Below, piece after piece: positions 14,286 to 60,873 of a DNA stretch of 64,000 nucleotides. The notes beneath the pieces are model-generated. The model was not told where the DNA came from, did not search any database, and saw only the letters and a list, made by a program, of their open reading frames with translations. Origin of the DNA: Paenibacillus sp. W2I17 (lineage in GTDB: Bacteria > Bacillota > Bacilli > Paenibacillales > Paenibacillaceae); the NCBI RefSeq assembly GCF_030815985.1, contig NZ_JAUSXM010000001.1, forward strand, positions 4,960,001 through 5,024,000, written 5' to 3'. The first letter of the stretch is position 1; every line of letters starts with the position of its first letter. A program made the position numbers and the translations under genes.

Positions 14286-14353
14286 CAGGAACTTTCTCGG
14301 CAAATGGAAGCGAATAACGTGTCTCAGGTTCATTAAAACAAAATAAAACGAAC

Positions 14354-22976: not shown

Positions 22977-23158
22977 ACTTACGGCATCTCGTATTAATTC
23001 TAACGAACTGTACACACGCTATTGGAGGGTATTTGGAGAAAATAATTTTCTAACGAACCAGAAACACGTTATTAGGCTCCATTTTCAGTTCTTGTGCAGG
23101 TTTTTACCCTTGTAAGCTATATAAGGTGGCCCATGGACCTATGTCAAAAAAGTAGACA

Positions 23159-24023
23159 CTACGCTGCGGATTTGTCCGTAAATTTCATCGCAAAACGAGC
23201 AGGGGAAAGATACCCTAGCGCGCCATGCATTCGCTTGCGGTTGTAATAGAACTCAATGTACTGGTAGATGGCAGTATAAGCCTCTTCCGGTGTCTTAAAA
23301 CGAGGGTTGCAGTAAATGAGTTCCTTCTTTAAAATACTGTGCCACGACTCAATACAGGCGTTATCATAACAGTTTCCTCGTCGGCTCATGCTTGATTCCA
23401 TTCCGTATGATTTTAGTTGCTCCACATATTCTTTTGACGTGTATTGAGAGCCCGCGATCCGAGTGATGGAGTAATCCCGGAGCAGGGCGTTTGGCCTTGT
23501 AAGCTTCCTCCAGTGCACCCATCACCAAACTGGTTTCCATATGGTTATATAGACGCCAGCCTACAATTTCACGTGTGCACAAATCCAGAACGCTGGCGAG
23601 ATATAGGCGACCTCCTCGGCAAGGAATGTAGGTGATGTCGGTAACCCATACCGTATTCGGTTTGGACGTTTTAAATTGCTGATTCAGCGTATTTGGTGCA
23701 AGGGGATGGTCGTGTTTGGAATCCGTAGTCTGAACGCGATATTTGGGCATGACCACAGAACGTAGATTCATTTGACGCATGTATATACTGACGGTACGGG
23801 AAGAGATTCGCAACCCTTCTAAATGGAGCAGATACGTAATTTTAGGGCTTCCACACCGCATCTGGTGGTCGTAAAAATGATACCGAATACGCTTCATGAC
23901 CTCGTCTTTGCGGTTCTGTCGCATGCTGGTTCGGTCCATTCGCCATTTGTAATATCCGCTCCGTGATACTTGAAAGGTACTGCACATCTTCTCCAAAGAA
24001 AACTCGGAGCGATGGTCTTCCAC
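23159..24023 (-). pseudogene. IS3-family transposase OrfB, frameshifted
   Basis: Two overlapping reading frames together make a complete DDE transposase of ~288 residues. The N-terminal part has FQVSRSGYYKW, the first Asp in VWVTDITYIP and the second in HHSDRG. One extra base near 23450-23453 then shifts the frame. The other frame continues with SQYTSKEYVEQL and the catalytic Glu in NACIESWHS, to the end. The break separates the second Asp from the Glu, so no functional catalytic core is made unless the shift is a sequencing error. In an intact copy it would be made as a fusion with OrfA by -1 frameshifting. Confidence 0.85.
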
Positions 24024-24034
24024 AAACTGAAATC

Positions 24035-24352
24035 TTAGCTCTTTGGTTTGCTGAAGATGTGCACTGCTTTTTTTACAATCGCCAGTTCTTCTTGTGTATC
24101 CGCAAGCGTGTGCTCTTTCTCTTGAAGCAACCGGCGCATCTCTTGGAGCTCTGCTTCCAGTTCCTTCACTCGATCTACACTGGCAACAGGCTCATGTTTT
24201 AGTTCGCGGTACTTACTCATCCATTGGTGCAACGTACTTTTTGGAATGTTGAGTTCTTCTGTCAAATCTCCAAGTGTCTTCGTCTGCTCTTGAATGAATT
24301 TGACCGTTTGTTTCTTGAATTCTTCGTTATATCGTTGCCGCTGTTCTCCCAT
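24035..24352 (-). CDS. IS3-family transposase OrfA
   Basis: This 105-residue protein has an N-terminal helix-turn-helix (YNEEFKKQTVKFIQEQTKTLGDLTEELNIPKSTLHQWMSKYRE) followed by a leucine-zipper coiled coil (about residues 60-95), the standard OrfA plan. GGAGG lies seven bases before ATG. Near its 3' end an A7G slippery run (minus strand, ~24068-24075) would allow a -1 shift into the orfB frame. The shifted frame does read directly into OrfB (SAHLQQTKELRFQFVEDHRSE). Confidence 0.88.
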   Translation of the reverse strand: MGEQRQRYNEEFKKQTVKFIQEQTKTLGDLTEELNIPKSTLHQWMSKYRELKHEPVASVDRVKELEAELQEMRRLLQEKEHTLADTQEELAIVKKAVHIFSKPKS

Positions 24353-24537
24353 GTGGACACCTCCGTTAGTCTTATTATCCTTCCGTCCGTTAACGGGTGT
24401 CCACTTTTTATTCTAGCTCCACCAGGTTCGTTAGATTTTGAAAACATGCTAAAAGCTTCAAATAAGACGTCTACGATTCGTTAGCCTATTCCGGTTCGAC
24501 TTTTTGAATCTCCGACGTGAAACATCCCACGCCTTCC

Positions 24538-52066: not shown

Positions 52067-52261
52067 CTAACGAACTCAGCACGCCTTATTTGCACTGAAT
52101 TAGCGTTATTGGAATTCTAACGAATCTCAGTAACCTTATTACTCTCAAAAACGATTGATTTAGCGCCAATAGGAGCAAGATCACCAGATTAACGCGTCTA
52201 AGATTCGTTAGAATATTGAAAACTCGGATTTCAGCCGAATAAGGCCTCTCAGATTGCTAGC
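52067..52261. repeat. Four-box palindromic intergenic element, copy 2
   Basis: CTAACGAA boxes lie at 52067-52074 and 52117-52124 (plus), a TTCGTTAG box at 52204-52211, and a degenerate fourth (TTGCTAGC) at 52254-52261. Spacings are 50, 79 and 50 as in copy 3. Boxes 1 and 2 are followed by CTTATT after ~10 bases, and box 4 by AAGGCCTTATT-type sequence on the opposite strand. It lies between the amylase terminator and the next gene. The remaining gap to 52456 shows nothing else. Confidence 0.85.
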
Positions 52262-60678: not shown

Positions 60679-60873
60679 CTAACGAATCGTAGACACCTTG
60701 TATGGAGGATTATCAAGCACTCCCAATTCTAACGAACTTGAGACATGTTATTTCTCGGTTAAGCAGCACAAAGCGGTAAAAGAAACCGCAGAATGAGGAA
60801 ATAAAGTGTCTACGATTCGTTAGAATGCCGGAATTGTGGAATTGGGCCTATTAGAGTGTGCTGAGTTCGTTAA
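60679..60873. repeat. Four-box palindromic intergenic element, copy 3
   Basis: CTAACGAA boxes lie at 60679-60686 and 60729-60736 (plus); reverse-complement boxes TTCGTTAG at 60816-60823 and TTCGTTAA at 60866-60873. Spacings are 50, 79 and 50, making a 195-base dyad centred near 60776. Boxes continue into AGACAC-(C/T)TT-type sequence, for example ATCGTAGACAC after box 1 and on the opposite strand after box 3. It lies between convergent gene ends. Confidence 0.88.

Follow-up and report, generated by a model that had tools for sequence, protein, structure and literature searches.

Between an ABC transporter gene on the plus strand and a convergent ORF on the minus strand of Paenibacillus sp. W2I17 lies a 195-bp element made of four boxes, two on the plus and two on the minus strand (++--), at spacings of 50, 79 and 50 bp. 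It is the third of three copies in the window, by which we mean the whole 64,000-nucleotide stretch that was analysed (positions 4,960,001 to 5,024,000 of C1, the one contig of 7.01 Mb that makes up this genome). The box word CTAACGAA occurs ten times in the window, against a mean of 1.34 and a maximum of 4 in 100 shuffles. In window coordinates, the copies and their boxes are as follows.

14297..14338, minus: lone half-element relic, a weak model match (E 0.0076)
23000..24484 (C1:4983000-4984484): copy 1, 1485 bp, inner minus box split by an insertion sequence (IS)
23000..23023, plus: copy 1 box 1, outer
23050..23073, plus: copy 1 box 2, inner
23134..24421, minus: IS in copy 1, 1288 bp, IS3 type, with rve/HTH_21 and HTH_Tnp_1 domains
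24422..24434, minus: copy 1 box 3, core side; the remaining side lies immediately left of the IS
24461..24484, minus: copy 1 box 4, outer
52067..52261 (C1:5012067-5012261): copy 2, ++--, spacings 50/79/50
52067..52090, plus: copy 2 box 1, outer
52117..52140, plus: copy 2 box 2, inner
52188..52211, minus: copy 2 box 3, inner
52238..52261, minus: copy 2 box 4, outer, degenerate core GCTAGCAA
60679..60873 (C1:5020679-5020873): copy 3, span 195, ++--, spacings 50/79/50
60679..60702, plus: copy 3 box 1, outer, 24 bp
60729..60752, plus: copy 3 box 2, inner
60800..60823, minus: copy 3 box 3, inner
60850..60873, minus: copy 3 box 4, outer, core TTAACGAA with one change

A sequence-only reading of this DNA had described the order and spacing of copies 2 and 3, and both were re-found exactly. 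It had also put the inner gap of copy 1 at 78 once the IS is removed. The IS is foreign to the element itself and interrupts box 3 at its centre. Subtracting it, with a 3-bp target duplication allowed for, leaves 194 bp (by subtraction only, no sequence being joined), which is compatible with that gap.

The box is 24 bp long and asymmetric. Its consensus in this genome is CTAACGAAYCNNAGACACSTTATT, with slight differences between the outer and inner versions, and it can be read as an imperfect inverted repeat, TAACG-N11-CGTTA. The four boxes of an element have dyad symmetry and lie 50 bp apart within each arm. Genome-wide, the pattern CTAACGAA-42-CTAACGAA has 27 matches and the reversed pattern none. 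A half-element model based on sequence recovered at least 106 halves (150 of 1,251 first-look candidates were scored), which pair into at least 50 elements and leave 6 halves single. Spans are 193-196 bp in 46 of the 50, 178 bp in one and 1485-1486 bp, with an IS, in three. Thus, a genome-wide search finds the spacing of the boxes to be fixed and not random, and the earlier proposal of selection on geometry was right. The accompanying claim that every copy follows a terminator at the 3' end of a gene does not hold in general. With ORFs of at least 90 aa from a mechanical caller, 29 of the 50 elements have a convergent context, 16 lie between ORFs on the same strand and 5 are divergent (29 versus 5, p 4e-5); terminators of the ordinary kind are recognisable beside some copies.

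We found no cognate gene beside the elements, whose neighbours look ordinary and mostly differ from lineage to lineage. In the element regions of the relative G036 (L056-L065), a few neighbours recur in other lineages, the best at 52-66% identity. At C1:2002251 and in G036 (L056), elements of two families adjoin homologous genes for a small stress-like protein (52% identity), which may be a coincidence or the trace of an ancient common locus.

Spread, dialects and purifying selection on the boxes

The family extends well beyond this genome. The pair CTAACG-44-CTAACG occurs at least once in 125 of 246 genomes of the order (the present one included), as expected if the layout is not peculiar to one locus, and many of these genomes have dozens. 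The highest counts are 226 (G140), 124 (G071), 116 (G158) and 114 (G119), and a reversed control over the 246 genomes gives mostly 0-4 matches, with a maximum of 13 (G239). The half-element model has matches in at least 29 of 59 relatives, again including the present genome, and in none of many congeners; counts for relatives are lower bounds, with up to 68 candidates scored per genome. Given that about half of the sampled genomes lack the box pair, the function of the element must be dispensable. A search of open PMC papers found no description of this four-box family.

Outside the order, a class-wide sample of 398 genomes contains one with 31 pair matches (G298). Its elements (L438-L444) have the box CTAACGGACAT..CACCTTAG and, by coordinate arithmetic, an inner gap of 68-69, and they are a candidate for horizontal transfer. 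Every other genome of that sample from outside the order has 5 pair matches or fewer, and those examined look unrelated. Two genomes, G514 and G522, carry a different dispersed repeat, CTAACGGGTGCTTTACTTC, with no facing partner among the matches listed.

Lineages write the box in different dialects. The word that follows CTAACG is AATC or AACC in the present genome, G036 and G225, ATC or ATT in G020, GAAC in G046 and G039, GACG in G044, GTTC or GTTT in G209, and ATTG in G239. Two genomes of genus g20 (G104 and G117; L445-L447) each hold two dialects, CTAACGGAC/GAAC and CTAACGCTT, which suggests two readers within one cell. Elsewhere, tandem repeats of about 290-350 bp contain one element each (L057 and L059 in G036, L124 in G041).

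Purifying selection keeps the boxes conserved where they stand. We collected 40 orthologous copies from six congeners and used 38 of them, leaving out one that was badly aligned (L207) and one in which the element is mostly lost (L210); flanking identities are 78-97%, mostly at least 88%. In the halves that had not been used for finding the loci, mismatches amount to 15 of 425 positions in the box core (3.5%) versus 151 of 1,239 in the linkers (12.2%; Fisher p 3e-8). The most conserved stretches among the orthologous copies are TAACGAA and TTAT.

Comparison with the congener G020, which has 33 paired elements (30 of them spanning 193-196 bp), reveals a change of dialect at a defined base. Base 8 of the box is A in 150 of 153 boxes of the present genome (153 of 188 were counted, with at most one change in CTAACG) versus T in 93 of 94 boxes of G020 (94 of 96 counted, from 24 of the 33 elements). 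Five of the 24 G020 elements whose flanks were examined have both flanking genes orthologous to those of an element in the present genome, and a few more have an ortholog of the neighbour on one side. At window copy 2, one of these five loci, the orthologous genes of G020 flank an element of the other dialect. Among six pairs, linker identities of 0.59, 0.52 and 0.50 are clearly above the chance level of 0.35, and those of 0.42, 0.41 and 0.37 are not clearly so; the linkers give no support to orthology for pair 1239006 (matched by one flank only) or pair 3505970 (matched by both). Retention of the first box base between orthologs is not significant (p 0.08). The three ortholog pairs establish, at the level of sequence, that at least three physical elements switched base 8 of their boxes in place. 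Concerted change at scattered sites, seen at these loci and in box composition across the genome, implies a trans-acting reader.

Concerted lineage dialects have a precedent in DNA uptake. Uptake words are short single motifs. Those of Neisseriaceae show dialects that likewise change in concert by lineage, as described in the work cited (PMC3630211), and the boxes could be such words. However, some 50 elements are a small number in 7 Mb for a bias in uptake, and this role would leave both the dyad and the linker phase described below unexplained. We give this explanation hardly any weight.

Linker phase, proposed DNA wrapping and the putative reader

The sequence-only reading held that only sequence close to the boxes is conserved. 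This is correct for the letters of the linkers and centres, which diverge, but not for linker composition, which is shared. Once the boxes are masked, A/T content along the linkers oscillates every 10.1 bp, with an amplitude about six times that of shuffled sequence: 0.108 in 22 elements of the present genome (maximum of 300 shuffles, 0.030) and 0.125 in 20 elements of G020 (shuffle maximum 0.033). These sets are the 195-bp elements outside a 14-member subfamily discussed below, 20 of 25 in the case of G020, and the correlation with the phase is positive in 22 of 22 and 20 of 20 elements. The phase is repeated in G046, G038, G225, G209, G239, G039 and G036 taken singly, each above all 2,000 shuffles; the elements of G044 and G114 were analysed only together with the others. 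In the flanks, periodicity is at the level of shuffles. In other words, the pattern ends at the outer boxes.

Stretches rich in A/T and in G/C alternate in register with the boxes and run unbroken through the centre, and the dyad falls on the same lattice. The main A/T peaks are at lattice positions 3, 22, 33, 42, 53, 72, 82 and 93; smaller extra peaks at 8, 16, 48, 58 and 66 are mostly box letters, and position 12-13, inside the first box, has no clear peak. In other lineages the inner gap is 68-70, versus 78-80, in 36 of the 39 elements that could be placed (of 40), and it is 68-69 in a further 6 of 6 elements of G036; gaps of 71, 74 and 90 are poor fits that were retained in the phase counts. 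This short-gap class has one helical turn less at the centre, and its phase is continuous. Because G225 joins the core word of the present genome with the short gap, gap and word evolve apart. Together, the 10.1-bp phase and the one-turn spacing step are the signature expected of rotationally positioned, wrapped DNA.

Three options had been put forward for the element: a multi-site protein-binding element, a large RNA or DNA hairpin, and a non-autonomous mobile unit, to which we return below. The dyad of boxes, the phase and the base-8 switch support the first. As for the second, a palindromic box order is the same on both strands, and the preference for convergent gene ends would suit a transcribed element that forms a large RNA hairpin or a bidirectional terminator. 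Yet arms compared within an element are no closer to each other than arms compared across elements, and the would-be pairing arms lack covariation and are, if anything, less alike than chance. Ordinary terminators are already visible beside some copies, Rfam 15 has no match in the window at the gathering threshold, and neither the A/T phase nor spacing classes one turn apart have an RNA rationale. A role in RNA is thus very hard to credit.

We know of no gyrase that reads lineage-specific 24-bp boxes. Loading sites for gyrase or topoisomerase IV, relieving supercoils between convergent genes, would nevertheless be long, symmetric and periodic in composition, and convergent gene ends are where the elements are preferentially found. 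The E. coli gyrase motif is long, symmetric and degenerate and has periodic GC arms whose composition reflects DNA wrapping; gyrase also prefers BIME-2 repeats (PMC6379681). The same account gives the motif a period of 10.75 bp and two arms with a central cleavage part in 130 bp, whereas the elements have four strict boxes, a period of 10.1 bp and a phase that continues across the centre. These differences make topoisomerase loading sites a very improbable explanation.

We consider it probable, judging from sequence composition, that a lineage-specific protein wraps the element, a dyad-symmetric four-site DNA about 185-195 bp long. This reader would bind the boxes, probably as dimers, and would wrap the DNA between them into a single compact particle in the manner of histones or gyrase. 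In the present genome, it would have to tell CTAACGAA from CTAACGAT. Patchy occurrence, and a reader that is known only as a putative protein, are the weakest points of the wrapping model. The two dialects side by side in G104 and G117, the spread of some copies by duplication and the missing phase peak at 12-13 also count against it.

The ~10-bp A/T phase around a dyad is also a property of the DNA that positions eukaryotic nucleosomes. The elements differ in that strict boxes fix the position, the setting is bacterial, and the wrapping protein is a putative one. To our knowledge, positioned nucleosomes are held to be absent from bacteria, whose dispersed architectural sites consist of short single motifs. 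Somewhat more tentatively, and a little short of even confidence, we suggest that Paenibacillales may own a dedicated, sequence-programmed counterpart of the nucleosome, with fixed addresses of 185-195 bp and one fast-evolving wrapping protein. If true, long, symmetric, rotationally phased sites with dialects, found genome-wide, would constitute a new bacterial chromosome architecture. They would also be a clear example from nature of a DNA reader co-evolving with all of its sites: the loci can be matched as orthologs, the switched base is defined, and the two spacing classes differ by one turn of the helix. The elements make it testable whether sequence alone programmes DNA wrapping in bacteria, and they are a strong bait for the reader protein.

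Two candidates for this protein were considered, of which one was rejected and the other found no support. The word TAACGG resembles a Myb site, and hence the Myb-like RsfA was examined and rejected; it is absent from 14 of 14 sampled genomes of g19, several of which carry elements (88 half-matches in G176 and 36 in G236). The RemA family (PF04025) occurs in 245 of 246 genomes, usually in two copies and irrespective of elements, which does not support it as the specific reader; it could at most be a partner. RemA is proposed to wrap DNA round a ring (PMC8481266). Wrapping proteins of the RemA/LrpC type are alike in one respect, as the 7-bp protections of RemA, 3 bp apart on AT-rich repeats, amount to a 10-bp step; no strict box or dispersed element family is described for them in the portion of the literature used here.

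Elements are concentrated in the half of the chromosome nearest the origin, which is marked by dnaA. This half holds 41 of 55 elements in the present genome, 35 of 40 in G020, 22 of 24 in G036, 18 of 20 in G025 and 15 of 15 in G011. These counts are unmatched to intergenic space or synteny, are of exact-core matches only for G036, G025 and G011, and are not independent for the present genome, G025 and G011, which share elements. When neighbours within 20 kb are merged, the bias remains, with 30 of 43 in the present genome (p 0.014), 29 of 34 in G020 and 13 of 15 in G036. The dnaA gene of the present genome (C1:4604056-4605364; L066, L067) is itself in two frames, matching 1-139 and 134-437 of the family model, perhaps through a sequencing error.

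Sites of the nucleoid occlusion proteins Noc and SlmA are short single motifs. The box consensus bears no resemblance to the Noc consensus, a short GC-centred palindrome. The likeness lies in dozens of dispersed sites, a sequence-specific protein and an origin-proximal concentration, since 40 of the 41 Noc loci of S. aureus are found in the half around the origin (PMC5540599). Unlike those sites, the elements put four boxes into 185-195 bp of phased DNA, have lineage dialects and are patchy. Based on the origin bias, the convergent preference and the analogy with Noc, the elements probably form a platform that organises the origin-proximal chromosome.

Mobility, IS targeting and loss

The third of the earlier options, a non-autonomous mobile unit, survives in part. 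Fourteen of the 50 elements of the present genome share longer flanks (for example C1:2002251 and C1:4583142), and pairs of recent copies are 86-89% identical over about 300 bp. The outer ends of this 14-member subfamily, read by eye, repeat GTGTCTTCAAAC and its complement; apparently, a four-box element was caught inside a small transposon. Mobility thus accounts for part of the copy history. The stronger alternative is that the whole family consists of REPIN- or MITE-like elements without host function, in which the boxes are the ends bound by a transposase of each lineage. This would fit the range of 0 to 226 half-matches among relatives, the lineage dialects (even two within one genome) and the sporadic occurrence outside the order, in G298.

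Counter to this, the edges of the 50 pooled elements give no signal of target duplication at any offset (maximum excess identity 0.08), and a search of roughly 2 kb around the six single halves, one of them a further copy of the IS insertion, found no autonomous version. Transposon ends need neither a centre of fixed length nor an unbroken phase. Purifying selection on boxes in place and the concerted switch of one base at orthologous loci also speak against it. We therefore consider this alternative unlikely, and continue to favour a wrapped, protein-bound element.

The manner of loss also bears on mobility. We followed one locus, spoIID-spoIIQ, where the four-box layout scores in 8 of 78 loci. 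Four of these have at most 1-3 mismatches and three have 4-5; among the latter, the layout of JJ-223 stands at the start of a gene and is probably spurious. Close relatives without the element show truncated or deleted remains and no precise empty site, with two close relatives cut by contig ends. At this one locus the element appears to have been lost by ragged deletion, which would count against mobility as the whole story.

REP units are short, fold into single-strand hairpins and are associated with RAYT (TnpA-REP) proteins. The elements resemble REP, BIME and REPIN repeats in being dispersed, intergenic, palindromic and lineage-specific, and differ in lacking support for a hairpin, as the identity of arms within elements is not above that between elements. 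A further likeness is dedicated targeting by IS. The genome carries six copies of the IS3-type IS, including one split into two pieces; all six lie in the centre of a box, and in four both sides are readable as box. This is a site-targeting IS, and in G036 an IS110-like ORF (recognised by eye) lies beside elements. REP repeats are reported to serve as targets of both IS3 and IS110 elements (PMC1525189).

At C1:1201823-1224379, two half-elements 21 kb apart are each terminated by a copy of the same IS3-type IS, an arrangement that suggests an IS-mediated rearrangement. An ORF adjoining this region resembles, by eye, a second DNA polymerase sliding clamp.
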